Source: Ancylobacter polymorphus (GTDB lineage: Bacteria; Pseudomonadota; Alphaproteobacteria; Rhizobiales; Xanthobacteraceae). From it: a stretch of DNA of 64,000 nt. The translations under genes were made by a program, and so were the position numbers. Numbering within the stretch: position 1 is the first letter of the stretch; each line of letters starts with the position of its first letter. The notes under the pieces were generated by a model that saw only the letters and a program-made list of their open reading frames with translations, ran no database searches and was not told the DNA's origin. Positions 7,425 to 63,033 of the stretch are shown here, one piece after another. The stretch lies in the NCBI RefSeq assembly GCF_030813495.1, contig NZ_JAUSUI010000003.1, positions 372,001-436,000 of the forward strand, read 5' to 3'.

Positions 7425-7498
7425 GCGGGCGTAGTTCAATGGTAGAACGGCAGCTTCCCAAGCTGCATACGAGGGTTCGATTCCCTTCGCCCGCTCCA
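7425..7498 (+). tRNA. tRNA-Gly (anticodon CCC)
   Basis: The 74-nt cloverleaf has acceptor strands GCGGGCG and CGCCCGC, discriminator T and an encoded CCA at 7496-7498. The D-arm contains AGTTCAATGGTAGAAC. The anticodon stem GCAGC/GCTGC encloses the loop TTCCCAA, so the anticodon is CCC. The T-arm contains GGTTCGATTCC. The D-loop is short, as is usual for tRNA-Gly. Confidence 0.97.
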
Positions 7499-48609: not shown

Positions 48610-48929
48610 GGCGAAAACTCCTCCGGATGACGATGTGGGAGTGTAGACGCAACGGAAGGCACTGCTATCCGGCCGGATGCCTACATCTAAAGTAGTAGAG
48701 TGCGGCCAGAACGCAATCGAATTCGCGCCGCTGCGGGTCAGCCGGTTGCACTTGGTTAACCGGGATCGGTGGCAACCAATTAACCGGAAAAGGTGAAGCT
48801 GGCGCGACAGGGCAGGCGGCGCATGGCAAGCGGCGCCGGCCCGCATTATTGTTGGAATGCGGCGGCAGGTCCTTGCGGGGCCTCCGTTTGCGGCATCCGG
48901 TTCTCACCGGCGGGATCATTCGGGCGCTC
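48610..48929. other. divergent intergenic region between the second phasin and the histidine kinase
   Basis: This 320-bp gap must hold promoters for both directions. Two TTAACCGG words at 48756-48763 and 48780-48787 resemble CtrA half-sites, but they do not form the TTAA-N7-TTAA pair. No gene is supported. Confidence 0.4.
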
Positions 48930-51569
48930 ATGACCACCGACGACATCGGCACATTGGCGACGCAGAACCTGCGTGCTCAGGCGGCGACCGCGCTCGCCGG
49001 GGCGGCGCCGGCGGTGCTCGCGCTCGCCGATGGCCGCGTGCTCGACGCCAATGACGCCGGCCGTGCCCTGCTCGACCCCGCGACTCTCGCCACGCTGGCG
49101 CCTCGCCTTGCCGCCACGCTGCGCCCGTCGCGTCCGGCGCGGCTGGAGCGGCTGCGCCTGCCCGGCACGCTCACCCCCGTCACCTTCGCCTGCTCGCTGA
49201 TTGCGGCCGGCGGCGCCCGCGCCCTGCTGCTGGTCGGGCTCGACGCCAAGCCCGCCCGTGCCCCGGCCGCGCCCGCCCCGGCCGGCGCACCGCCCGAAGC
49301 GCCGTCCGTGGCGGCGCCCGCCCGCTTCACCTGGAGCACCGGCCCGGATGCGCGGCTGAACCGTATCGACCCGCGCCTCGCCGCGGCGCTGGAGCGCGCG
49401 CCGGACGACCTCGCCGGCCGCGACTGGCGCGCGCTCGGTGCGCCCGACGCTCACCGCGCGGTGCTGGAGGGGCGCAGCTTCACCCATTTGGCGCTGCTTC
49501 TGCCGACGGCGCGCGGCGAGGGGCTCGCCATCGAGCTTGGCGGCGCCCCCATTCGCGGCGACGGCATGCGCGGCTTCGGCGTGATAAGGGGCCGCCGGCC
49601 GCTGGACGCGCGGGCCGAGACGCCCGCCCGCCCGGACCTTTCCCCGCCGGTGAGCCCGCCGGCGCCGCGTCTCCCCGAAGCTGCGCCCCCGGCGCCCGAG
49701 CCCGCCCCGCCGGTGCGGGTGACGCTGAGCCTGGTGCCGTCGCCGGCCAATGTCGTGCCGCTGCGCGCCGGAAGCGAACCCGGCCGCGACGCCGCCCGCT
49801 CCTCCTGGGAGGGGCTGTCGACCGGGGAGCGCAACGCGTTCCGCGATATCGCCCGCGCCCTCGGCGCGCGGCTGGAAGGCGTCGACGACCCTGCCGACAT
49901 CTCGGCCGATGCGCCCGCCGAGCCCGTCATCGAGCCGCCCGCGCCTCCCCCCGCGCCGCCCCGCGAGACGCCGCCCGAAGTCCCGCGCCCTGTCGAGCCC
50001 GCCGCCGCCGAGGCTTCCCCGGACAGCACCGGCCTGCGTCGCGTTCTCGCCGAGGGCGAGCGCCCTGTGCTGGACCGGCTGCCGCTGGGCCTGCTCGCCT
50101 TTCGCGGCGACCGTCTGCTCTATGCCAATCGCGCGCTGCTCGACTGGACCGGGCATGAGGACCTCGCCGCGCTGGAAGCGGCCGGCGGTCTCTCCGGCCT
50201 GTTCGACACCGCACCGGCGGCGGGAGGCGGCGACGTGCCGCTGACCATCGTCGGCGCCGAGGGCGCGCCGATCCGCGTCGAGGCGCGGCTGATGTCCTCT
50301 CCCTGGGAGGGCGGCTCAGCCATGCTCTATGTGCTGCACCGCGCCACCGCGCCGGTTCCTGCGCCCACCGATATAGCCACCGAGGCGGCGGCGGCCGAGG
50401 CGCTCAATGATGAACGGCTGCGCCAGGCCGAACTCGCCCTGCGCGAGGCGGAGCGTTCCAGCCGCGAATTGCGCGCCATTCTCGACACCGCCACCGACGG
50501 TGTGGTGCTGATCGACGCCGCCGGCACCATCCTGTCGATGAACCACCCGGCGGAGGCGCTGTTCGGCTTCCACGCCGCCGAGGTGAAGGGCGAATCCTTC
50601 ACCCTGTTGCTGGCGCCGGAAAGCCACCGCGCGGCGGTCGACTACCTCGACGGCCTCGCCGCCAATGGCGTCGCCAGCGTGCTCAATGACGGGCGCGAGG
50701 TGATCGGCCGCGTGCGCGAAGGCGGGCTGATCCCGCTGTTCATGACCGTGGGCCGGGTCGGCGACGACCCCACCAAATTCTGCGCCGTGCTGCGCGACAT
50801 CACCCAGTGGAAGCGCGCCGAGGAGGAGCTGATCGAGGCCAAGCGGCTCGCCGAGCGCGCCAACCTCGCCAAATCCGACTTCCTCGCCAAGATCAGCCAC
50901 GAGATCCGCACCCCGCTCAACGCGATCATCGGCTTCTCCGAAGTCATGATGGAGGAGCGATTCGGGCAGGTGGAGAACCAGCGCTACCGCGACTATCTGC
51001 GCGACATCCACGCCTCTGGCGAGCACCTCGTCTCGCTGATCAACGATCTGCTCGATCTCTCCAAGATCGAGGCCGGCAAGCTCGACCTCGCCTTCACCAG
51101 TGTGTCGCTGAACGAGGTGGTGCAGCAGTGCATGGGCATCATGCAGCCGCAGGCGAACCGCGAGCGCATCATCATCCGCTCCTCGCTCGCCACCGACCTG
51201 CCGCCCGTGGTGGCCGATACGCGCTCCATCCGCCAGATCGTGCTCAACCTCGTGTCCAACTCGATCAAGTTCACCCAGCCCGGCGGGCAGGTGATCCTGT
51301 CGACGACGCTGACGGAGGAGGGCGAGGTGGTGCTGCGGGTGCGCGACACCGGGGTCGGCATGTCGGAATCCGACGTGATGGTGGCGATGGAACCGTTCCG
51401 CCAGATCACCACCTCGGCCCGCGCCGGTTCCGGCGGCACCGGCCTCGGCCTGCCGCTGACCAAGGCGCTGGCGGAAGCCAACCGCGCCGCCTTCAACATC
51501 CGCAGCGCGGTGGATGTCGGCACCATCGTCGAGATCATCTTCCCCTCGACACGGGTGCTGGCGGAGTGA
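48930..51569 (+). CDS. PAS-domain sensor histidine kinase (PleC/PdhS-like)
   Basis: This 879-residue sensor kinase has a long, proline/alanine-rich N-terminal region (to about 375), two PAS domains (about 380-480 and 513-630), a HisKA domain with the phospho-acceptor His657 in AKISHEIRTPLNAIIGFSEV, and a HATPase domain with NLVSNSIKF near 772, DTGVGMSE and GSGGTGLGLPLTK. No clear membrane segment is seen. The C-terminus resembles the cell-cycle kinases PleC/PdhS of alphaproteobacteria, so a role in division or polarity is possible. Its last 32 bases are attL of the inserted element, which preserves the C-terminus. Confidence 0.88.
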   Translation: MTTDDIGTLATQNLRAQAATALAGAAPAVLALADGRVLDANDAGRALLDPATLATLAPRLAATLRPSRPARLERLRLPGTLTPVTFACSLIAAGGARALLLVGLDAKPARAPAAPAPAGAPPEAPSVAAPARFTWSTGPDARLNRIDPRLAAALERAPDDLAGRDWRALGAPDAHRAVLEGRSFTHLALLLPTARGEGLAIELGGAPIRGDGMRGFGVIRGRRPLDARAETPARPDLSPPVSPPAPRLPEAAPPAPEPAPPVRVTLSLVPSPANVVPLRAGSEPGRDAARSSWEGLSTGERNAFRDIARALGARLEGVDDPADISADAPAEPVIEPPAPPPAPPRETPPEVPRPVEPAAAEASPDSTGLRRVLAEGERPVLDRLPLGLLAFRGDRLLYANRALLDWTGHEDLAALEAAGGLSGLFDTAPAAGGGDVPLTIVGAEGAPIRVEARLMSSPWEGGSAMLYVLHRATAPVPAPTDIATEAAAAEALNDERLRQAELALREAERSSRELRAILDTATDGVVLIDAAGTILSMNHPAEALFGFHAAEVKGESFTLLLAPESHRAAVDYLDGLAANGVASVLNDGREVIGRVREGGLIPLFMTVGRVGDDPTKFCAVLRDITQWKRAEEELIEAKRLAERANLAKSDFLAKISHEIRTPLNAIIGFSEVMMEERFGQVENQRYRDYLRDIHASGEHLVSLINDLLDLSKIEAGKLDLAFTSVSLNEVVQQCMGIMQPQANRERIIIRSSLATDLPPVVADTRSIRQIVLNLVSNSIKFTQPGGQVILSTTLTEEGEVVLRVRDTGVGMSESDVMVAMEPFRQITTSARAGSGGTGLGLPLTKALAEANRAAFNIRSAVDVGTIVEIIFPSTRVLAE
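51536..51567. repeat. attL (left 32-bp direct repeat)
   Basis: CATCTTCCCCTCGACACGGG then TGCTGGCGGAGT lies inside the last codons of the kinase (IFPSTRVLAE, stop TGA). It matches attR except for one base (A here, G at attR). Confidence 0.88.
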
Positions 51570-51638
51570 GTATTTCCAACAGGTTGTTGATCTAAAAGGA
51601 GTTTCGGCCGCCTCTTTGGTCCAGTGAGGCGACCCAGA

Positions 51639-53252
51639 ATGCAGATGGCCTACCCCTCTCCGAAGCTCAACCGGACGTCAGGACGCTGGCGCTTCCGCAA
51701 GGTGGTTCCTGCCGCCATTCGCTCTCGTCTGGGCAAGACCGAGATTGTGCGATGGCTCGGCACCGACCGCGACGAGGCCCGCAGGCGGAACGCTGAACTG
51801 CATGCCGAGTGGGAGGCGCGGTTCGCAGCGCTGGCGAGCGGCATAACCGTTCTCTCCCGCAAGCAGGCGCTGGCGTTGGCCGGGCGGTGGTACGGGTGGT
51901 TCGTCGCGCGGCATGATGATGATGCCGGTACGACACCCGAGGGCTGGCAGCTCTCCCTTGAAGCCCTGCAAGCGCTGGAGGATACGGGCAGCCTGCTGGA
52001 TGAACGTGACATCTCGCCTTTGGACGAGAGGCCGCGCGGGCCGAAGACGACCCAGCGGGTGCATGCCTTCCTGCACGACCGGGGACACCTCGCTCAGTTC
52101 TTCTTGGACGAGGGTGTGACCCTCGCGCCGGCTTCGCTCCCGCTCTTCATGGAGGCGATGGAGGATCAGTTCTATGCCGCTCACCAGCGGCTCATGCAGC
52201 TTGCTAGGGGCGACTACAGCCCCGATGAGCGGCCGGCACGGTTCCCTGTGTGGGAGCCTGCTGCGCCGGCCTCAAAGGCTTCTGGCGCCGCCGCTGCGTC
52301 AGGCGAGAAGCTGACATTGCCGGTGCTCTTCGAGCGGTGGAAGGCCGCTCATCCCGAGATTTCGCCCGGCACGCTGAAGGTCTATGCCCCGTCGATCCGG
52401 GCCTGTGACGCCTTCCTGAGCGGCATGGATGTGCGGTTCATCACAGAGGATGACCTCTGGCGATGGGTGAAGCACCGCCTAGAGGTCGAAGGTGTCTCCG
52501 GGAAAACCATCCGCGACAACAGTTTGACAGCCCTCAAATCGGTCCTCGGCTGGGCCGCGTCCTATGAGGGCGGGCGTGTGCTGACCAGCAACGCCGCTGC
52601 GGCTGTGAAGCCGAAGACGCCCAAGCGGGTGCGCGAACGCCAGCCGAATTTCCGGGCCGATGAGATCAAGGCCGTGCTTGGCGCCGCGCTGGCCGTGCCG
52701 GACGACCCGAAGAACCCGACGCAGGCTTTCACGCGGCGTTGGGTGCCGTGGCTGTGTGCCTATACAGGCGCTCGCGTCCGGGAAATGACGCAGTTACGCG
52801 GTGTGGACGTGCGCCAAGAGGGCGGCGTCTGGGTCCTCGACATCACGCCGGAGGCCGGCACGGTCAAGAGCGGACAAGCCCGGCGCGCCTTCCTGCATGA
52901 GCACCTTGTGGCGCTTGGCTTTCCCGACTTCGTTGCTTCGCGGGGACCGGGGCCGCTCTTCTATGACCCCGAGCGCCGGCAGGCCGATGCCAAGACCTCG
53001 CAGGCGGAGACGCGGGCGCTGCATCTCGCGAAATGGGTGCGCGACACGGCGAAGCTCGATCCGCGCCTTCAGCCGAACCATGCGTGGCGGCACACACTGA
53101 AAACGCGGCTGACCGAGGCGAAGGTTGAGCCGTCCATCCGCGACATTCTGGTCGGGCACACGGTCAAGGGTGTCGCCCGGTCCTATGAGCATGTGAGCCC
53201 CGCCGTGCTGGTGGCGGAGCTGAACAAGGTGCCGCGCTACGAGGTGGATTGA
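51639..53252 (+). CDS. int: tyrosine-type site-specific integrase
   Basis: This integrase of about 537 residues catalyses insertion and excision of the element. The N-terminal part is DUF6538-like (PSPKLNRTSGRWRFRKVVP), the core-binding domain is around 225-325, and the catalytic domain has Arg379 in TGARVREM, His481 and Arg484 in HAWRHTLKT, a His in GHTVKG and the nucleophile Tyr516 in SYEHVSP. All catalytic residues appear intact. ATG 51639 was chosen over GTG 51624. The gene lies directly inside attL and reads into the element. Confidence 0.93.
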   Translation: MQMAYPSPKLNRTSGRWRFRKVVPAAIRSRLGKTEIVRWLGTDRDEARRRNAELHAEWEARFAALASGITVLSRKQALALAGRWYGWFVARHDDDAGTTPEGWQLSLEALQALEDTGSLLDERDISPLDERPRGPKTTQRVHAFLHDRGHLAQFFLDEGVTLAPASLPLFMEAMEDQFYAAHQRLMQLARGDYSPDERPARFPVWEPAAPASKASGAAAASGEKLTLPVLFERWKAAHPEISPGTLKVYAPSIRACDAFLSGMDVRFITEDDLWRWVKHRLEVEGVSGKTIRDNSLTALKSVLGWAASYEGGRVLTSNAAAAVKPKTPKRVRERQPNFRADEIKAVLGAALAVPDDPKNPTQAFTRRWVPWLCAYTGARVREMTQLRGVDVRQEGGVWVLDITPEAGTVKSGQARRAFLHEHLVALGFPDFVASRGPGPLFYDPERRQADAKTSQAETRALHLAKWVRDTAKLDPRLQPNHAWRHTLKTRLTEAKVEPSIRDILVGHTVKGVARSYEHVSPAVLVAELNKVPRYEVD

Positions 53253-53396
53253 CCGGGCCGGTGCCCTCGCGACTAGCAACCACGCATTGGTCCGACGTTG
53301 CGGCCGAAGCGCCTTATCTGGTGGGCTCCTAAGCCTTCCTCTTGTTGACAGCACCGTCTCAATGAAACGGTAGTGAACCGCAAAGCGTTGTAACGG

Positions 53397-54227
53397 CTAG
53401 AACACGCCGTGGTCCTGCGGCGTCAACGGCTCGTCTTCCCAATGCAGGGACAGCTCATCTTCGACCTCGTGCTGGTCCCCGATCATCGTCAGCATGCTCC
53501 GGGCGAGGGTCAATATCTCGTCCCGCACCCAATAATCCGAAGCATCGCCGAACGCCTGCCGCAGTTTGGCGAGGGCGGAACGGGCGGCCTCCAGCTCCTT
53601 TTCATGGTCCTCGCGAGTCGGCGGCGTGCCGCCCTCTCCGACAAACTCCGCCGCTCCACCCATCTTGAGCGCCGTCTTTTTGAAGTCCTTCTGCATCCAC
53701 CGCCACACCGTGGGCTTGGGTATGGCTAGGTCCCGCGCGATGTCGTCATAGGACTTGAGCTGCCCCGCGAGGCTGCTGCCGTCCTTGCCATATCCAGCTC
53801 TGAGGACATGCTGGCGAGTGCGGACATAGGTTCGGAACATCTCCCGACGCTCTCGCGGCTTGAGCGGCAGGCCGTGCTTGGTGTTCGCATCTGCCGCTCG
53901 CCACAGTGCCTGCGAGCGCGGCAACGCCATTGCGACAGCGTTGACGGTCGTGGCGCCCGTCTGCCGGAACGCGCGGCAACGGTGGTGGCCGTCCACGACC
54001 ACCGGCTCTTTGTCGTCACCACAGAAGGCAATCGTGATGGGCGGCAGTTCGGCCCCCGCCTTGATGGCCCCCACCAGCCTGCCGACGTGCCCCGTATCAA
54101 GATCAACACGCACCTGAAACGCTGGGTCACGCCGGATGTCGTCCAGCTTCACGACGAAAGCCTTCGTGGCCTCCCCCTTGGCCTCTACAGCCGCCTTGCG
54201 CAGGGCTTCCAAGCTCGTCACCGTCAC
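53397..54227 (-). CDS. ParB-like nuclease-fold protein with helix-turn-helix
   Basis: This 276-residue protein has a ParB/Srx-type domain at about 22-105, with the nucleotide-binding box VVVDGHHRCRAFRQTG at 76-91 as in ParB, and a helix-turn-helix SYDDIARDLAIPKPTVWRW near 159-177. A helical, acidic C-terminus follows. It could be a CTPase-type DNA clamp, a partition protein or a regulator of the element. There is no ParA partner nearby. GTG 54227 has GGAGG seven bases upstream and overlaps the previous gene's stop by four bases (GTGA), so the two are translationally coupled. Confidence 0.75.
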   Translation of the reverse strand: MTVTSLEALRKAAVEAKGEATKAFVVKLDDIRRDPAFQVRVDLDTGHVGRLVGAIKAGAELPPITIAFCGDDKEPVVVDGHHRCRAFRQTGATTVNAVAMALPRSQALWRAADANTKHGLPLKPRERREMFRTYVRTRQHVLRAGYGKDGSSLAGQLKSYDDIARDLAIPKPTVWRWMQKDFKKTALKMGGAAEFVGEGGTPPTREDHEKELEAARSALAKLRQAFGDASDYWVRDEILTLARSMLTMIGDQHEVEDELSLHWEDEPLTPQDHGVF

Positions 54228-54883
54228 GTCAAATCCTCCAGCGCGTTCCGGAAGGCGTCGCGCTTGGCGGCGGCCTCCTCTTGCTCGCGTCGTTCCAGTT
54301 CGGCCAAGCGTAGCCCCACCACACCCAGCGTCTCGACCAGCCATTGCGCGAAGATGGCGGACACGGCGGGGGGAACGTCGCGATAGACGCGCTTCGTCCG
54401 GCCGCTCGCATGATCGAACCAGACGCCCGCATTGACCTCCGAGAGGCCCCGCACCCGGCGCACGAGCTGGGCATTGAAGGCGGCATCGGTGCGGAATTTG
54501 CGGGGGTCGGCGTCGCGCATGAGGTAGAGCGCCGCCACGGTCTCCATCACCGCCCGCGCCTCGATATCGACCAGCCGCAGCACCTCGCCGGCCGCCCGCA
54601 ACTCGAAGCGGTTCACCGCCCGGCCGCCCTGAAAGGCCGCGAGAATGCGCTGTGCGTGCTCCACGGTGGCGCGCCATCGGTCATCGCACTGCGACCAGAG
54701 CGGGCTCCCGGTGTTCTTAGCGATGCGGGCGCGCACGCGGTCTACATAGGGCGCCAGCGCGGCCTTGGTGATGCCGAGCTGGGCAACGTCGCCGTGGCGG
54801 CGGACGCGGGACTTGTGAGTGGTGCAATAATGCCCGAAGCGGGTCGCCTCAGCGCCGCATCCGGGGACGCGACAGAGAGCCAT
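54224..54883 (-). CDS. hypothetical protein with N-terminal zinc-binding motif
   Basis: This 219-residue protein has no assigned function. Residues 4-23 show C-X4-C-X10-C-X2-H (Cys4, Cys9, Cys20, His23 in the segment starting CRVPGC), a small zinc-binding pattern common in phage and plasmid proteins. The rest is mostly alpha-helical and charged, with a C-terminal coiled-coil-like end (LRLAELERREQEEAAAKRD). Coupling with the ParB-like gene suggests a joint job. The frame and codon use fit the neighbouring genes. Confidence 0.7.
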   Translation of the reverse strand: MALCRVPGCGAEATRFGHYCTTHKSRVRRHGDVAQLGITKAALAPYVDRVRARIAKNTGSPLWSQCDDRWRATVEHAQRILAAFQGGRAVNRFELRAAGEVLRLVDIEARAVMETVAALYLMRDADPRKFRTDAAFNAQLVRRVRGLSEVNAGVWFDHASGRTKRVYRDVPPAVSAIFAQWLVETLGVVGLRLAELERREQEEAAAKRDAFRNALEDLT

Positions 54884-54978
54884 GCGAAACCCGAGAAATC
54901 TGCGTCCGTCCCCGGACAGACAGACGCGAATTAATTCACGCGGACGGAGGTGGCAACCCCGTCACGGCCTGCCCCGCC

Positions 54979-57900
54979 TCACGCCACGCGGCGGAACATG
55001 AAGCTGCGGCCGTCCGGGGTGCTGGCAAAGCCCATGCGGACCAGCGAGGCCAGGGTGGCCTGTATCGGCGGCTCGACACGCTTGCCCTGCCGGAAGCTGG
55101 CGGCGATGGCGGCGGCGTCCACCGTGCCGGAAGCGTTGGCGAGCGCGGCCATGATGGCGGCGGTGCGCTCCACCTCGCCGGCCGGGAATTGCGGCTTCTG
55201 CTCCTTGGCGGCGTCCACCACCAGCGCCATGCTGTCCTGCGCCTCTTCCGGCTGCACGGCGGTGGCGATGCCGGCGCGGGCCTTCTGGTAGTCCGGCCGC
55301 AGCCAGCGGATCAGGCCCCGCGCTTCCTCCTTGGCGCGCTCCTTGTTGAGCGCCACGAGGCGGGCGATGATGTCCTCGTCCGAGAGGTCGCGCGGCCAGC
55401 CATAGGCGTCGAACACCAGCGCGTCGAGCCTGTCGTGCAACTCCTTCAGGATCAGCACCAGCCCCTCGTCGCGGATGCGGGTGTCGTCCGCGTCCAGCGG
55501 CTCACCGGCGCGCAGCTTTTCCAGCACGTTGTACATCTGAGTGAGGGTCAGGCGCGGATGCTCCGCCTGCCGGGCCTTGCGGAAGGCGTCCAGCTCCTCG
55601 GCAACGGCGCGGATTTGCGCCTTCAGCGCCTCGGAGGCGTCCGGGAAGGGGAAGGGGTCGAACGTCCTCGACTTCGAGTAGACAGAATCGTTTCCGATGC
55701 CAAGCCAGCCGCCCACTCGGGTGGCCCAGCAAACATGGAGGCGAGAAGAGAGAATACCCATTACCGCAAAATCATCAGAAGCGACGAGAACGACCTTATC
55801 GTCGCATATCACCGAAGGCTCAACCGACTGAAAGACGCGGTGCCTTGCCGTATCTACGGTAGCAAAATAGCACCGCAATCCTTCGAGGGCCGGTCGCATT
55901 TCCTGTCTGGGCTCGCCGAAGATCCACCAGTTATCCCGATAAGCGGCTCGGTTATTGACGTCCCGTCCATTTGGTCGGCCGTCAGGCCCGACAGACTGCT
56001 TAACCGTTGCCACCACATGCTGGTAAACCTCGGGGAAGCGTCGCCTGACGTCCTCAGCCTTGAGACCAAAGAGATCAATTACAAGAAGGCCGCGCGGCGT
56101 GCCAATTAGGTCTCGCCCGTTCCGGTAGGGTCGTATGTAGTGATCAAGCTGATCGCGGCTTCCGTAGCCAAGCAATTCGGCTTGTTGAGGGTGAACTATG
56201 AACCCAGAGCCGTGCAGCTTAACGCCGTCATGGCAAATTGACCTATTGGCCTGAAGCTTTTCAAGGCTCGTAACGTCTATGCCAGCCGACAAATCCGGAT
56301 TGATCACCCCGGATACGCTGCCATAGACGATTAGGGGAGTGTCCGTGTCCAGCCGTTGCTCGCTGATGACGTCATTCAGTAGGCCGTCATGCTTCCCGGC
56401 CGCCGCCACGGTCATGGCGATGCGCACGGCCGCCGCGTCCCGCGTCGCCTTGGTCCATGGGTGGTCCGGTATCGCCATCAGCAGGGAAATCGGCTTCTTC
56501 GCCTTCATCCGTGCCGCCATGACGCGGCGGGAAAATTCCTGCGTGATCGAGTTGGTGGTGACGAAGCCGAAGCGCCGCAGCTTCGTGCCGCGCCGGGTCA
56601 GCAGGTCCGCCGCGCGGTCCCACCAGTACATGACGAAATCGGCGCTCTCGTTCATGTGCGGGTGTGCCGCCCACAGCGCCTTGGCATAGCCGTCCCCCAA
56701 TCGGCCACGAATAAGAGAGCCGCCGATGAAGGGCGGGTTGCCGACAATGTATTCCGCTTCCGGCCATGGCGGCAGGCGCGGGTTGCGGAAGGTGAACACC
56801 GGCACGCGGCGCCCCTCCGCATCCGTTTGCATGACAGGCTGGCCGGAGGCGTCCCGCGCCGGCTCGCTGCCATCGTGCAGCAGCACCGCGTCCATCGCCT
56901 TGATGGTCTTGAAGTCGCGCAGAATGGGCTCGGTCGGCTGGCCGCCCTGCGTGCGGAAAAACCATTGCAGGAAGCCGATCCACACCACCAGTTCGGCAAT
57001 CGCGGCGGCATGCGGGTTCAGCTCCATACCGAGGAACTGGTGCGGGTCGATGGTGTGGCGGTCCAGCCCCAGCGTTTCCTGCCCGCCAAGGTCCGCCACC
57101 GCTTCCAGAACCTCGCCCTCCAGCCGCTTCATCAGCTCCAGGGCGACATAGAGGAAGTTGCCGGTGCCGCAGGCGGGGTCCAGCACGCGCACGCCGCAGA
57201 GCTGCGCATGGAATTTCATGACCTCCGCCAAGGCCGCGCCTTGGTTGCCCTCGCTGCTCAGCCGTTCAGCCGTGGCGCGCACGAGGTCCCATTCCGCCCG
57301 CAGCGGCTCGATGATGGTGGCGACCACCAGCCGCTCGACATAAGCGCGCGGGGTGTAGTGCGCCCCCAGCTTGCGGCGCTCCACCGGGTCCAGCGCCTGC
57401 TCCAGCAGCGTGCCGAAGATGGCAGGTTCCACCTCGCGCCAGTTCGCCTTGGCGGCCTCGAACAACTCGCCAATCTCCTCGCGCGGCAGCGGCAGCACCG
57501 TGCGGTCCTTGAACAGATAGCCGTTGAAGCGCTTCACCTTGGCCTCGATGGCGAAAGCGAAGGTGCCGGCGTCCATCGCCTCCCAGAGCTGGCCGACCAG
57601 TTCCGGGAACAGCTCCGGGGTCGCGCGGCAGCGGTCCAGCACGCGCTTGAAGCTCTCCTTCGGGATAAGCTCCACGTCCTCGGCGAACATCGTGAAGAGG
57701 CAGCGCATGAGGAAGGAGGCGATGGCCTCGCGCTTGTAGCGCGGCGTGCCGTCCGCCCCGCGCTGCTCCTCAAGGAACTTCGACACCTTGGCGAGGCGCT
57801 CGGCGATGTCGCGCGTGACCTTGGCAGCGCGCTTGGTCGGGTCGAGGCTGTGCGGGTCGGTCCAGACCTTTTTCAGCCGCTCGCGCACCTCCTCCGAGCG

Positions 57901-58455
57901 GAGGTCTTGCAGGAAGATGCGGAACCCCTGCCGATCCGGGAACTGCGCATAGTTCTTCCCCTGCCCGGAGAAGTCCGCGTACAGTTCGAAGCAGTTGCCG
58001 ACATCGCAGACGATGAGGAAGGGCGGCCAGCCCTCGGCAGGCGGCAGCGCCTTGGCGTAGTCCTCCGCCTGACGGCGGGCGTTCATCATCAGCACGTCCC
58101 AGCGGCGGCTTACGCGGCGCCCCTGCGGCGGCTCCTCTAGCGGGAACAAGGCGGGTTGATCGGCGCCGGGCGCGGCTTTCGGCCCCTCGCCCTGCCGGCT
58201 CTGCTTGGCCTCCAGCACGAAGCAGCCGCGCTTGTAGAGGTCGATGCGGCCTTTCGCGGTGGACCCGTCCGGCTCGCGGAAGGTCACGGCCCGCTCGAAC
58301 ACATAGGCGTTCAGCTCTGTGGCGTGCGCGGCCGGGTCCGGCGACTCCACGCCGATCAGCCGGCAGAACTCGGTGAGGAACAGAGCGTAGTTGGCGCGCT
58401 CCTGCCCGCCTTCGCGGCCTGTCCAACGGGAAATGAAGCGCTCGACGTCGGTCAT
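54979..58455 (-). CDS. MmeI-like type IIG/IIL restriction-modification enzyme
   Basis: This 1158-residue single-chain enzyme has an N-terminal PD-(D/E)XK-like nuclease motif (Asp72, Glu82, Lys84 in GRIDLY and FVLEAKQ), a helical connector, and an N6-adenine methyltransferase domain with motif I DPACGTGNF at 426-434 and motif IV NPPF at 573-576. FGTLLEQALDPVERRKLGAHYT, RFGFVTTNSITQE and the target-recognition part ILSSRLHVCWATRVGG closely resemble MmeI-type proteins. It would methylate its own DNA and cut unmodified invading DNA. A methylase-only role, as in DISARM-type systems, is an alternative. The gene is the second in the minus-strand unit. Confidence 0.83.
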   Translation of the reverse strand: MTDVERFISRWTGREGGQERANYALFLTEFCRLIGVESPDPAAHATELNAYVFERAVTFREPDGSTAKGRIDLYKRGCFVLEAKQSRQGEGPKAAPGADQPALFPLEEPPQGRRVSRRWDVLMMNARRQAEDYAKALPPAEGWPPFLIVCDVGNCFELYADFSGQGKNYAQFPDRQGFRIFLQDLRSEEVRERLKKVWTDPHSLDPTKRAAKVTRDIAERLAKVSKFLEEQRGADGTPRYKREAIASFLMRCLFTMFAEDVELIPKESFKRVLDRCRATPELFPELVGQLWEAMDAGTFAFAIEAKVKRFNGYLFKDRTVLPLPREEIGELFEAAKANWREVEPAIFGTLLEQALDPVERRKLGAHYTPRAYVERLVVATIIEPLRAEWDLVRATAERLSSEGNQGAALAEVMKFHAQLCGVRVLDPACGTGNFLYVALELMKRLEGEVLEAVADLGGQETLGLDRHTIDPHQFLGMELNPHAAAIAELVVWIGFLQWFFRTQGGQPTEPILRDFKTIKAMDAVLLHDGSEPARDASGQPVMQTDAEGRRVPVFTFRNPRLPPWPEAEYIVGNPPFIGGSLIRGRLGDGYAKALWAAHPHMNESADFVMYWWDRAADLLTRRGTKLRRFGFVTTNSITQEFSRRVMAARMKAKKPISLLMAIPDHPWTKATRDAAAVRIAMTVAAAGKHDGLLNDVISEQRLDTDTPLIVYGSVSGVINPDLSAGIDVTSLEKLQANRSICHDGVKLHGSGFIVHPQQAELLGYGSRDQLDHYIRPYRNGRDLIGTPRGLLVIDLFGLKAEDVRRRFPEVYQHVVATVKQSVGPDGRPNGRDVNNRAAYRDNWWIFGEPRQEMRPALEGLRCYFATVDTARHRVFQSVEPSVICDDKVVLVASDDFAVMGILSSRLHVCWATRVGGWLGIGNDSVYSKSRTFDPFPFPDASEALKAQIRAVAEELDAFRKARQAEHPRLTLTQMYNVLEKLRAGEPLDADDTRIRDEGLVLILKELHDRLDALVFDAYGWPRDLSDEDIIARLVALNKERAKEEARGLIRWLRPDYQKARAGIATAVQPEEAQDSMALVVDAAKEQKPQFPAGEVERTAAIMAALANASGTVDAAAIAASFRQGKRVEPPIQATLASLVRMGFASTPDGRSFMFRRVA

Positions 58456-58499
58456 GCCCGCCCAAGTGACACGAGGTGAGGCGCGAGGCTAGCCTTCCC

Positions 58500-59261
58500 T
58501 TACGCGCCCGGCAATGCGGTATTGGAGGCGGTCCCCGATGCTGTCTCCAGCGCCCGGTAGACGCTCGCCCGGCCGATGCCCAGCGCCTTGGCAATCTCGG
58601 TCACGGTCTTGCCCTCGCCATGCAGCCGCCGCGCGTCGTCCGCCTTGAGCCGCGCCGATGGCTTGCGGCCGGTGTAGCGGCCTTCGGCCTTGGCCTTGGC
58701 GATGCCCTCCTTCTGGCGCTCCAGCATCATCTCGCGCTCGAACTGCGCAAAGCCCGCGAAAATGTTGAGGATCAACCGCCCGGTGGCGCTGCGTGTGTCC
58801 ACCATCTCGCCCCCGAGATTCAGCACCCGCAAGCTGACGCCCTTCATGTCGAGGTCACGGACGATATCCCACAGGTGGATGGTGGAGCGTGCCAGCCGGT
58901 CAATCTTGGTGACGACCAGCGTGTCGCCCTCGCGCACGAAGTCCATCGCCCGCGCCAGCTCCGCCCGGTTGCCCACCGAAGACGCCTGCTCGCTGAACAC
59001 CCGCCCGCACCCGGCCGCGCCAAGGTCCCGCTGCTGCGCCTCCAGCCCGGCCGCCTGCTCCGCCGTGGAGGTGCGGGCATAGCCGACCAGAAGCGGCGCC
59101 GGGGGCGGCATGGGCGTGCCATTGGGCGGGCGCTGCGGTGGTTCTTCGCCCGGCCGCATACCGGCATGCACCGCCGCTTCGCGCTCCAGCCGCTCCCGCT
59201 GGCGTTCGAGCTTCTGCTGCTGCCTTAGCAGCCGTTCAAGCGGATCGGTGATGCGTGCCAT
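58500..59261 (-). CDS. serine recombinase (resolvase/invertase family)
   Basis: This 253-residue recombinase has the catalytic Ser65 in VGYARTSTAEQ and the usual VTKIDRLARS and EREMMLERQKEGIAKAKAEG, with a C-terminal helix-turn-helix (KTVTEIAKALGIGRASVYRAL). It carries an unusual N-terminal extension of about 55 charged and proline-rich residues (LERLLRQQQKLERQRERLER, coiled-coil-like). It may resolve the element or invert DNA; no inverted repeats flanking a segment are obvious. It lies 44 bases upstream of the MmeI-like gene. Confidence 0.88.
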   Translation of the reverse strand: MARITDPLERLLRQQQKLERQRERLEREAAVHAGMRPGEEPPQRPPNGTPMPPPAPLLVGYARTSTAEQAAGLEAQQRDLGAAGCGRVFSEQASSVGNRAELARAMDFVREGDTLVVTKIDRLARSTIHLWDIVRDLDMKGVSLRVLNLGGEMVDTRSATGRLILNIFAGFAQFEREMMLERQKEGIAKAKAEGRYTGRKPSARLKADDARRLHGEGKTVTEIAKALGIGRASVYRALETASGTASNTALPGA

Positions 59262-59551
59262 GCCCGGCCCTCGTGTCCAAAAGGTCTAGGCATGAGAGTC
59301 GAGTGCGTCCAAAATGTCAACACCCATCCTATTGGGCGCGCTTGGGCACGGAAGCGGACGTGTCCGGATGGGCAAGGTCTATTGGACGGATGCGGGGTGT
59401 CACCGCCGCCGACTCATTGGTCTGTTGCGGTAGTTTTGGCTAGAATGAATGAGAGGGATGGGCCCGGGAGGGGGATAGCGCGCGGAACGCTGTTCCAAGA
59501 TGCTCTGACGAATTTCTGTGAAAAATTGCTGCGGGATGCTGAAGGGCGACA

Positions 59552-60661
59552 ATGAACGGGCAATGGCTTGGCACCTATGAGGGGACCAACACGGGCTCCG
59601 CAATTCTCGAACTGGACGATATGGGAGACCGCTACGCCGGTGCTCTATATGCCTATGACGCAAGGCCCGGCCTTCCGAGTTCGGTGGTCTGGTTTGAGAC
59701 CCCGGGCAAAAGCGATCAGTTTGAGCTTGATGCTCACGTCGCACCCCTTCACCCCGGCACGGGCGAGCCCGTCTCGCGGGAATTCATCAAGGAAATTTAC
59801 CCCGATGCAACGATGCCAGAGCGCATCCGTCTGAGTTGCTCAGTCGTCGGCGACGTACTCCATATCAGTTGGACAACCCCGTTGGGCACCGAGGGCACAG
59901 CCCAGCTGACAAAACCCGATGCGTCACGCCCTTCAGACTATGAGCCGATCGATATAAAGGACTGGAATTCTTTCAAAGCCTTTGCCACAGCTCAAGAACC
60001 ATACCGATACATATATCGCGGACAAGAAAGCAATGAATGGCGACTTAGGACGCACTTTCATAGAACTGGTCGAGCTTATATCGTTCGTTTCATCAATCAA
60101 GACATACCAGCTCTGCATAAAAATCTAACCAATCTGACACGGCATTTCTTCCGGCTAGAGAGCAACATCGAGAACGCAGCGTTTTATTCGCTAGTTCAAC
60201 ACCATGGCTATCCGACCCCCTTGTTGGATTGGACGCACTCGCCGTTCGTGGCGGCGTATTTTGCATACAAGGGGCTCCGAAAGGACAAGATCAACCCGAC
60301 CAAGAAGGTCCGAATTTTTGTGTTTGACAGCACAGCGTGGCGCAATGATCGGCGGCAATTCACGAAGATCAGCCCTGCGCCGGAGCACTTCTCCCTGTTG
60401 GATCCCATCGCTCTAAACAACCCGAGGATGGTGCCGCAGCAGGCTCTATCGAGCGTCACTAATTTGGACGATGTGGAAGGCTACATCCGGAGGCGGGAAA
60501 GCGAGGCGCAGAAGACATATCTTCGCGTGATTGATCTTCCATCGATTGAACGCAAAGAGGCGATGCAGCAGCTGAGCATCATGGGCATCACGGCTGGTTC
60601 GCTCTTTCCGGGCATAGACGGCGCCTGCGAGCAGTTGCGAGAACGGTTCTTCGACTTGTGA
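59552..60661 (+). CDS. FRG-domain protein, function unknown
   Basis: This 369-residue protein has a unique N-terminal beta-rich domain (about 1-125, with GQWLGTYEGTNTGSAILELDD) and an FRG domain (about 135-330) with the motif IYRGQESNEWRLRTHFHR near 154 and QHHGYPTPLLDWTHSPFVAAYFA near 216. FRG proteins occur in phage and defence contexts; a biochemical role is not established for this group. It is the only plus-strand cargo gene, preceded by GAAGGG, and its sequence is visibly more AT-rich than its neighbours, which suggests a separate origin within the element. Confidence 0.75.
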   Translation: MNGQWLGTYEGTNTGSAILELDDMGDRYAGALYAYDARPGLPSSVVWFETPGKSDQFELDAHVAPLHPGTGEPVSREFIKEIYPDATMPERIRLSCSVVGDVLHISWTTPLGTEGTAQLTKPDASRPSDYEPIDIKDWNSFKAFATAQEPYRYIYRGQESNEWRLRTHFHRTGRAYIVRFINQDIPALHKNLTNLTRHFFRLESNIENAAFYSLVQHHGYPTPLLDWTHSPFVAAYFAYKGLRKDKINPTKKVRIFVFDSTAWRNDRRQFTKISPAPEHFSLLDPIALNNPRMVPQQALSSVTNLDDVEGYIRRRESEAQKTYLRVIDLPSIERKEAMQQLSIMGITAGSLFPGIDGACEQLRERFFDL

Positions 60662-60781
60662 CCGGTGCTCTGCGCCAAGTCGCGGGCACCTTGACGAAAA
60701 CCCATTTCTCTGGTCCAGTGCAACGCATCGACGGCTGAAAATATCCAGCCAGATCAATAACCTACGGCTCCGTTCCGGAAG

Positions 60782-60813
60782 CATCTTCCCCTCGACGCGG
60801 GTGCTGGCGGAGT
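60782..60813. repeat. attR (right 32-bp direct repeat)
   Basis: This copy of attL ends in GAGT followed by AG, so it encodes IFPSTRVLAE and a TAG stop. It is therefore the original end of the kinase gene, displaced by the insertion, and the AsmA gene end follows within a few bases. Confidence 0.88.
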
Positions 60814-60817
60814 AGCC

Positions 60818-62809
60818 TCAGGGCGCGGGGGCGGAGACTTCGAGTTTTTCCGACGGCGCGAGCAGCGCGCGGCCGGCGCCGGAGCGGCGGATCAGCGCCT
60901 GCGGGTCGGGCAGAAGGATCGGCCTCACCCAGTCGCCGCGCACGATGAAGGGTAGCTCGAATGCCACCGTGACCGCCGGCGCCGCAGCGCTCGCGGCGAG
61001 GGTCGACGTGTCGGCGGCGAGGCTCGCCGCCACGCCGGCCACCGAAGGGGCGGCGCTTTCCGCATTTGCCGCGCTCGCGGCGGGCACGGGGCCCGACGCC
61101 GGCGCGGCATTCGGCACCGGCGCCGGATCTGGCGCGGGCGCTGCGGCCTTGGCCAGCTTGCCGGCTGAGGTGGCACGCACCAGCTGGGCGACGCCGGAAA
61201 GATCGAGGCCGCGCGAGGCGACCGCACTCTCGCCGGTGAGCGCCACATGCAGCGTGCTGCTCGACAGATCGAGCCGGTCGAGCTTGACGATGCCGTCGGC
61301 GATGCGGGCATCGACCACGATATCGGTGAAAGGCGTGCGCCCGCCCCGCAGATCGCCGCCGGACAGCGGCCGCTTTTCCAGCCGGGTCAGGATGCGGCCG
61401 ACATCGATGCCCACCAGCGCGCCCTCGCTGCCACCGAGCGTGAAGGCGCCGCCGAGCCCCTCGGCGATCTCCATGATGCTGGCCCCGCCGCCAATGGCCG
61501 AGAGCCGGAACGAGCCGGTGCCCTCCAGACGCTGGACGCGGAACAGGTCGCTCAGCGCCGGGCCCAGCGCCACATCGTCGGCGGAAAGATCGAGGCGCAC
61601 ATTCATCCCCGGACCGGCCGGGCGGGGGGAGAGCTGGACGGCGGCGCGGAACAGGCCGCCCCAGGCCTCGGCCTCGCCGATGGTGAGCGACAGCCGCCCG
61701 CCCTTGGCGGTGGCGGCGGCCGCCATGCGCTGGAAACTGGCCCCGCCGAGACGCACCTGGCCGGCGGAAAGCCGCAGTTCCACGTCCAGTCCCCGGGCGG
61801 GGCCGAGATCGAGCGCCTCGCGGCTCCAGCTGCCCTCATGCGGGTTGGACAGGCTGAGTTCGCCATAGGGCGAGAGGTCCATGGTCTCGCAGGCCAGCGA
61901 GCCCTGCAGCATCGGCCGGGGGCCGTCGATGCGCAGATTGAACGCGCCGATGCCGGTATTGCCGTCGAGATCGAGCTTGGCCTGGCTCAGCTGGACGCCC
62001 TGCGCCGACAGCAGCGCCATGCCGCGCAGCGCGAACGGGCCGAAGCCGCGTTCGGTCGGCGCATCCATGCCAAGCCAGGCCAGCGCCTCACGCAGCTCTC
62101 CGGCGCCGACCTTGAGATCGCCCGACACCACCGGCCCGCCCGCCAGCCGGGCACCGCCGGTGAAACTGGCCGTGGCCAGCGGCGCGGCGAGCGACAGGGA
62201 GAGCCCGCCGACCTCGCCCGCCGCCAGCGCGCGCAGATTGCTGAGCTTGCCGTCGATCGCCACCCGCTCGCCACGCCAGACAGCGGTGCCGGCCACCGTG
62301 ACATTCGCCCCGCCGCGCCAGCCAATGGCGAGGTTCGCGTCGGGAACCAGCATTTCCGTGCCGTCGCCACGGGCGAGGGCGACGCTGCCATTGGTGACAA
62401 CGAGATCACCGCGCGAATCGGCGCTGCCCAGCGAGGCAATGAAGCCGCCAAGCGCCGTCAGCCCGTCGCCGGGATCGGCGAGAACCAGCCGGGCCTCGGG
62501 GAGTTCGATGGAATCGGCCCGGACATGGCCGGCGAGCAGAGGCAGCAGGTCCAGCACCACCCGCACGGAGGGGGCTTCGAGCCGGGCGCGCGGGTCCTCA
62601 AGGCTCACCCCGTCAAGGGTGAAGGCAGGCCGGGGCAGGACGGTGAAGGAAACCGGGCCATCGATTCGTGGCTCGACGCCGGTGGCGGCGGCGATCATCG
62701 CTCCCGCCTGCGCCCGCAGCGTTTCCTCGGAGGCGAGCTTGGGCGCAAGCGCTCCCGCCACCATCGCCAGTGCCACTGGCACGAGGAGGAATGGAATGTA
62801 TTTCTTCAT
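60818..62809 (-). CDS. AsmA family outer-membrane-assembly protein
   Basis: This 663-residue inner-membrane-anchored periplasmic protein of the AsmA/TamB-like group may be involved in lipid transport or outer membrane assembly. It begins with a membrane anchor (FLLVPVALAMVAGALAPKLA), then the AsmA N-terminal segment ATGVEPRIDGPVSFTVLPRP, and the C-terminal part has VVDARIADGIVKLDRLDLSS. A proline/alanine linker sits near the C-terminus. ATG 62809 opens the anchor; an upstream frame extension has no support. The gene's stop lies four bases past attR. Confidence 0.87.
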   Translation of the reverse strand: MKKYIPFLLVPVALAMVAGALAPKLASEETLRAQAGAMIAAATGVEPRIDGPVSFTVLPRPAFTLDGVSLEDPRARLEAPSVRVVLDLLPLLAGHVRADSIELPEARLVLADPGDGLTALGGFIASLGSADSRGDLVVTNGSVALARGDGTEMLVPDANLAIGWRGGANVTVAGTAVWRGERVAIDGKLSNLRALAAGEVGGLSLSLAAPLATASFTGGARLAGGPVVSGDLKVGAGELREALAWLGMDAPTERGFGPFALRGMALLSAQGVQLSQAKLDLDGNTGIGAFNLRIDGPRPMLQGSLACETMDLSPYGELSLSNPHEGSWSREALDLGPARGLDVELRLSAGQVRLGGASFQRMAAAATAKGGRLSLTIGEAEAWGGLFRAAVQLSPRPAGPGMNVRLDLSADDVALGPALSDLFRVQRLEGTGSFRLSAIGGGASIMEIAEGLGGAFTLGGSEGALVGIDVGRILTRLEKRPLSGGDLRGGRTPFTDIVVDARIADGIVKLDRLDLSSSTLHVALTGESAVASRGLDLSGVAQLVRATSAGKLAKAAAPAPDPAPVPNAAPASGPVPAASAANAESAAPSVAGVAASLAADTSTLAASAAAPAVTVAFELPFIVRGDWVRPILLPDPQALIRRSGAGRALLAPSEKLEVSAPAP

Positions 62810-63033
62810 TGCGTCGTCAGGCTCCACGCCCTCGCTACCCCATCGCAGCCAGGCCGCGCAAGCAAGAGCGGCGCTCGGAGAGGTACGGATCGCGCGCAGT
62901 TGGCGTACCGAAAGTTGCCGCACCATGTTGGCGCTCTGTGTCTGTTTGATGGCCTGACAGGCGGCGTGGCCGGCGCTATGAGTGTTGCAGTGCAAAACGC
63001 CGACGCAACGGCGCCTGAAACGGGAGGAAGGCC

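Follow-up and report, generated by a model that had tools for sequence, protein, structure and literature searches.

The 3′ end of a sensor kinase gene of Ancylobacter polymorphus holds a 9.25-kb integrative element (51536-60781, plus a 32-bp attR core) in the window, the 64,000-nt stretch of DNA that was analysed here and to which all coordinates refer. According to the explanation preferred as a whole (probability about 0.88), the element would have reached this place in Ancylobacter when its tyrosine integrase recombined attP with a core sequence at the very end (last codons and stop) of the gene for a pdhS-like cell-division kinase, and a copy of the gene end carried on attP would restore the kinase at attL. 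The boundaries, the empty site, the restoration, the recurrence at the same site and a similarity across species above that of the neighbouring AsmA gene are read from comparison among genomes.

The element (51536-60813) is bracketed by a direct repeat, with the attL core at 51536-51567 and the attR core at 60782-60813 (both on the forward strand, 31 of 32 bases identical; the single mismatch is at core position 16, A in the left copy and G in the right). A 301-base query over attL, run against the whole 4.7-Mb genome, matched, apart from its own position, the attR core (97%) and, weakly, one other place (77%); a chance repeat was rejected, as the attR core is the sole strong second copy genome-wide. 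An earlier note on this DNA had described the repeat as the last 32 bases of the kinase gene recurring with one mismatch: the recurrence and the mismatch stand, but the repeat takes in 32 of the last 34 bases of the kinase open reading frame (end at 51569) and stops at the T of the TGA, leaving the stop only partly covered. The attR core runs into TAG at 60813-60815, and the stop of the AsmA-family gene begins at 60818 on the opposite strand, 2 bp apart. TGA at attL, TAG at attR and the adjoining AsmA gene end are all found as that note had them. The end repeats, the integrase at one end and the empty site in relatives all fit a site-specific tyrosine-integrase island.

A close relative in which the kinase end is joined to the AsmA end had been named as the check on this reading, and such a clean empty site is present in G002, whose joined flanks are 97.1% identical over 1,235 nt with one gap, whose kinase domain is 99-100% identical to that of the window and whose kinase stop is likewise TAG. 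The stop codon alone is weak evidence, since TAG, TAA and TGA all occur among the empty sites of the genus. G002 shares the A at core position 16 with the attL of the window, the attR of which has G; attL and attR also differ at position 16 in G005, and at position 19 in G366. Provided that the left part of attL is chromosomal, the crossover would lie to the right of core position 19, in the last 13 bases. Core position 3, which is T in the attR of the window, as in its host clade, and C in the other elements, speaks against so simple a reading of the crossover position; because of this T, attP may have picked up host sequence earlier or been converted.

The attB gene (48849-51569, forward strand) encodes a sensor kinase with PAS, HisKA and HATPase_c domains. 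Residues 318-906 align with 465-1041 of the 1041 positions of NF041593 (PdhS, equivalog; E 5.1e-193, 644 bits), and the kinase is named PdhS-like because 644 bits falls below the curated 2000 of that family. Its last codons are supplied by the element, attL restoring both the reading frame and the gene end, which agrees with the claim that the host kinase is kept intact; a regulated disruption of the kinase was rejected on the ground of the restored frame. PdhS of Brucella abortus is termed essential in the title of a reference cited by PMC2957392, and if it were essential in Ancylobacter too, restoration of the gene would be a requirement for survival. The right-hand host neighbour is the AsmA-family gene (60818-62995, reverse strand; open reading frame and domain search). 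A tRNA end as target within the window was rejected, the sole tRNA gene of the window lying at 7425-7498, and no Rfam match at gathering scores was found for a hidden RNA in 51400-61000.

The distribution of the element was surveyed in 30 Ancylobacter genomes, including that of the window, by integrase and kinase-domain searches, with the sequence after the kinase stop read in all of them. The integrase stands at the kinase site in six (G000, G005, G007, G009, G360 and G366); end repeats flank the element on both sides in five of these, and the contig of the sixth (A. amanitiformis) ends inside the MmeI gene. The site is empty in 21 genomes, where 8-766 nt lie between the start of the kinase stop and the AsmA match, with no integrase found (G001 and G010, counted here, have one small gene between kinase and AsmA). 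The remaining three comprise a relic (G369) and two sites with other DNA (G012 and G362). Six occupied against 21 empty sites, with the joined-flank comparison, bear out the claim of an element with direct-repeat att sites at the 3′ end of the kinase.

The proteins of the element are far more alike across species than AsmA, and the element therefore appears to have moved between species. Relative to the window, identities in L004 (the copy of G007) are 94% for the integrase, 89% for the ParB-like open reading frame, 91% for the 219-aa protein, 85% for MmeI and 91% for the resolvase, and those in L007 (the copy of G366) are 95% for the integrase, 96% for MmeI and 93% for the resolvase, compared with 59-67% for AsmA and 71-72% for the full-length kinase. 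The conserved kinase domain alone is 91-93% identical for G007 and G366 and 83-100% across the genus, so the case for transfer leans mainly on AsmA, together with the variable part of the kinase. Vertical inheritance, that is, a single entry in the Ancylobacter ancestor followed by loss in most species, with the present site a fossil, is unlikely. Decay of the kind it calls for does occur: in L007 the integrase breaks off at residue 375 and is fused to MmeI, with the stretch from the integrase end through mid-MmeI lost, and in the G369 relic (L251, 897-4545) the kinase stop is followed by an MmeI gene with a broken frame, two short resolvase fragments, 14 nt of core and then AsmA. Yet a fossil site does not sit well with element proteins that are 85-96% alike where AsmA is only 59-67% alike, nor with G002, the nearest relative by kinase, where the site is vacant, the core occurs once and no further trace of the element was seen. 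The element may be mobile at present.

Just inside the left core, where the earlier note had placed it, lies the tyrosine integrase gene (51624-53252, forward strand; translation more likely starts from an in-frame ATG at 51639), the product of which carries DUF6538 and Phage_integrase domains. The motifs GARVRE, GTVKSG, HAWRH and VGHTVKGVARSYEH are kept and contain R384, K415, H486/R489, H512 and Y521, which we take to be the catalytic residues. A literature search on DUF6538, with subscription journals mostly outside its coverage, found no paper. Alignment suggests candidate arm sites for this integrase: GGTTGTTGATC (51582-51592, forward strand) with an inverted copy at 60752, and TTTGGTCCAGTG (51615-51626, forward strand) with a direct copy at 60709, the corresponding candidates in the right arm (60690-60781) being TCTGGTCCAGTG (60709) and GATCAATAACC (60752).

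The integrase is followed by four genes on the reverse strand and then by a slot with a forward-strand FRG gene. The first of the four encodes a ParB-like protein (53397-54230; phrog_1033, E 9.4e-15), the start of which is probably near 54227 because a longer open reading frame to 54677 overlaps the neighbouring gene. The second (54224-54883) encodes a 219-aa protein with a zinc-finger-like Cys/His N terminus and a helical body that is conserved in other islands; a confident structural model of it (mean pLDDT 90.8) matched no fold among PDB or viral structures at E≤0.001, and the best match in a PDB profile search was only E 0.39. Of 82 sources searched with profiles of the element proteins, 11 contain the 219-aa protein and 12 the ParB-like protein. 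The 219-aa zinc-finger-like protein is also seen at the alphaproteobacterial integrase-family loci L009, L029, L062, L066, L068 and L083. The third gene (54979-58455) encodes an MmeI-type (type IIG) restriction enzyme and methyltransferase, with all four MmeI domains (N-terminal, helical, methyltransferase, TRD) fused in a single polypeptide, each above its Pfam cut-off; it also matches PADLOC PDLC03627 (E 0, 1638 bits), and restriction and methylation are its predicted activities. The nuclease-helical-methyltransferase-TRD domains are those of MmeI (PDB 5hr4), but the enzyme of the window is longer (1158 versus 919 aa). The fourth (58500-59261) encodes a serine resolvase/invertase recognized by profile searches.

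The cargo gene of the window copy (59552-60661, forward strand) encodes an FRG-domain protein of the PADLOC candidate family PDC-S15 (PDLC04937, E 1.3e-45; Pfam FRG 75 bits, over 25), a defence candidate by these matches. In this gene (measured over 59500-60499) the GC content drops to 51-56%, versus about 65-70% around it. The benefit of the element to its host may thus be defence, through the MmeI-type enzyme and an exchangeable gene, here that of the FRG protein.

Integration at the end of a protein-coding gene had been called unusual in the earlier note, and in general this does not hold: among 1,757,053 islands of the TIGER/Islander survey, 43.4% are in coding sequences and 33.8% in tRNA or tmRNA genes (PMC12424338), and attP usually carries replacement sequence that keeps the target functional, according to PMC10111431. 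With direct-repeat att sites, an integrase near attL, an empty site and a restored target, the element resembles the tyrosine-integrase islands of that survey and differs from them in that its target is pdhS. It is a well-resolved case of a familiar kind, without being a new kind, and its gene-end integration with restoration is ordinary. A PICI integrase subclade is similar in having both tRNA and protein-gene targets within one subclade, but there the prophage gene cap_E is left disrupted (PMC10111431), whereas here a chromosomal kinase is restored. A literature search for pdhS, integrase and genomic island, in which subscription journals were mostly outside coverage, returned no paper.

Within the integrase family, the label unusual does apply, and the remaining parts of the overall reading, namely the element, its boundaries, its att sites and the restored kinase, stand as first proposed. 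The cargo slot, the possible resolvase sites and the spread across species go beyond what the earlier note described. Among the best 80 of 221 integrase loci, with tRNA genes called by ARAGORN, 61 have a tRNA gene that ends less than 500 nt upstream (48 of them one within 130 nt), 4 have pdhS there, and 15 have neither. Nine of these 15 (L014, L042, L043, L045, L053, L056, L062, L072 and L078) end in a tRNA-like 3′ piece by eye, and in four (L067, L075, L079 and L081) the match covers the protein only from an internal position onward and thus does not reach the gene start. The pdhS target is a local exception, tRNA being the usual neighbour in the family (61 of the best 80 of 221). In a tree of 80 rows, the pdhS copies form one group (support 80) and, joined by L008, a group of six (support 100); in a more careful tree of 22 chosen rows, six pdhS copies without L008 are grouped at 83/53, and the pdhS group plus L008 at 100/100. 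Given the modest support for the pdhS-only group (80; 83/53), a switch back to tRNA is conceivable.

L008 lies behind tRNA-Leu(GAG) in A. amanitiformis, the same species as the pdhS copy L005, and its element (also L120) has 22-bp repeats 17.7 kb apart. Its integrase is 66% identical to that of the window and its left-arm motifs are the same, but its target is a tRNA gene, its resolvase is only 34% identical and its genes are prophage-like by eye; no ParB-like, 219-aa, MmeI or FRG protein was found in it at E≤1e-3. The pdhS and tRNA-Leu(GAG) cores both start 45 nt from the shared left-arm motif AGGTTRTTGAT, and in this register the tRNA and pdhS ends share 9 bases in a run of 10 (TCCTCTCGAC and TCCCCTCGAC), an agreement matched by 0.045% (0.00045) of 200,000 random window stretches, or 0.37% (0.0037) with shifts of ±3. 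Over the whole 22-base comparison 9 bases agree, a number reached by 11% of random stretches. TTCCCCTCGAC was found in 29 of the 30 genomes of the genus, and TCGAC is held by 3 of the 23 readable sequences among 27 family orthologues outside the genus. These observations support, without proving, that an ancestral tRNA-targeting integrase took up pdhS as its new target because the gene end resembles that of tRNA-Leu(GAG), and a switch through this look-alike is likely. The shift of an integrase away from tRNA genes to a protein gene would then be documented, and dated by comparison, within a single genus; the occupied, empty, decayed and sister-target stages can all be read, making it a testable case for integrase target change.

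Beyond the genus, no integrase match above 42% identity was found in 347 genomes of the order at E≤1e-60, other than the window itself. Plasmids gave matches in 15 records (best about 35% among the matches listed) and viral contigs at 36 loci (40% identity or less). Packaging and movement by a helper phage, which would make the element a phage satellite, is doubtful, though the size, the integrase and a set of six main proteins in which neither structural nor conjugation functions were recognized (no relaxase or conjugation family in Pfam, NCBIfam or PHROGs) would suit it. So would the variable slot, as P4-like satellites are also small, with a constant core and a variable hotspot able to hold defence genes (PMC8628076). 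The Ancylobacter element differs from the satellites described there in its lack of recognized P4 core genes and in the place of its slot, next to a serine resolvase at the attR end; no satellite marker (psu, sid, alpA or primase) was among the hits of the six main proteins, the integrase and the 219-aa protein had no match in 50,697 phage records, and no helper phage is known.

The slot was delimited in the five elements with both ends (window, G005, G007, G009 and L007). Their backbone of integrase, ParB-like protein, zinc-finger-like protein, MmeI-type enzyme and serine resolvase is constant; similarity extends to about 59391 in window coordinates, is then lost and returns no earlier than the right arm (at 60690 in the best pair), leaving a variable cargo slot at 59391-60689. 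The five slot genes are mutually unrelated (best match E 1.3), and the cargo proteins of the other four elements gave no more than a sub-threshold AbiJ_NTD4 match, for G007 (23.6 bits, cut-off 34), and none in PADLOC. In all 10 pairs, identity is higher over the 90 nt that follow the left core than over the 90 nt that precede the right core (100 versus 57 for G007-G009), a contrast that may be inflated by a left stretch partly coding or near coding; the right arm thus seems to have had a separate history, as though it moved together with the cargo. A one-gene slot of this type is a place to seek new anti-phage genes.

At the inner edge of the slot, upstream of the resolvase gene, lies a putative resolvase (res) region (59275-59387) with four half-sites like GTCCAATAGGTC (59275 and 59307 on the forward strand, 59326 and 59376 on the reverse), placed at matching offsets in all five elements; the consensus was picked after viewing the sequence, and 5 of 2,000 random window stretches had at least four half-sites, possibly including the region itself. 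These half-sites presumably resemble that of the gamma-delta/Tn3 resolvase. Of the 76 integrase loci other than the pdhS ones (from the best 80 of 221), 39 have a resolvase downstream, on the element side, and 2 have one upstream (0.59 Mb searched downstream and 0.71 Mb upstream), so integrase and serine resolvase are a recurrent pairing. There is about an even chance that the variation in the slot arises from homologous or illegitimate recombination of the ordinary sort, with the resolvase merely resolving dimers of a circular form: conserved DNA flanks the slot on both sides, a 12-2-12 palindrome search for a crossover subsite gave at best 7-8 of 12 matches, which is the chance level, and the right slot edge is without a second resolvase-like site by eye. 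Such recombination leaves unexplained, however, why in all five elements the variation begins within a few bases beyond the outermost half-site. Alternatively, although this is unlikely, the resolvase may exchange cargo by a site-specific reciprocal swap of one gene plus the right arm between tandem elements: if pdhS held two elements one after the other, a crossover at their resolvase sites would pair backbone 1 with cargo 2 in the chromosome, while backbone 2, cargo 1 and a working attP would leave as a circle. Were both this exchange and the jump from tRNA-Leu to pdhS true, the element would represent a small type with a constant core and a plug-in socket for defence genes.

Two sites between pdhS and AsmA hold other DNA. 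The G012 site (L105, 944-10090) is filled by some 9 kb of other genes, by eye DEAD-box helicase-like and glycosyltransferase-like, without an integrase and with no second core at up to 9 mismatches. In G362 (L252, 850-4713) an intact MmeI-like gene (71%, 1161 aa) stands alone, with no element DNA found beside it, and may either be left over from an older element or have arrived separately.
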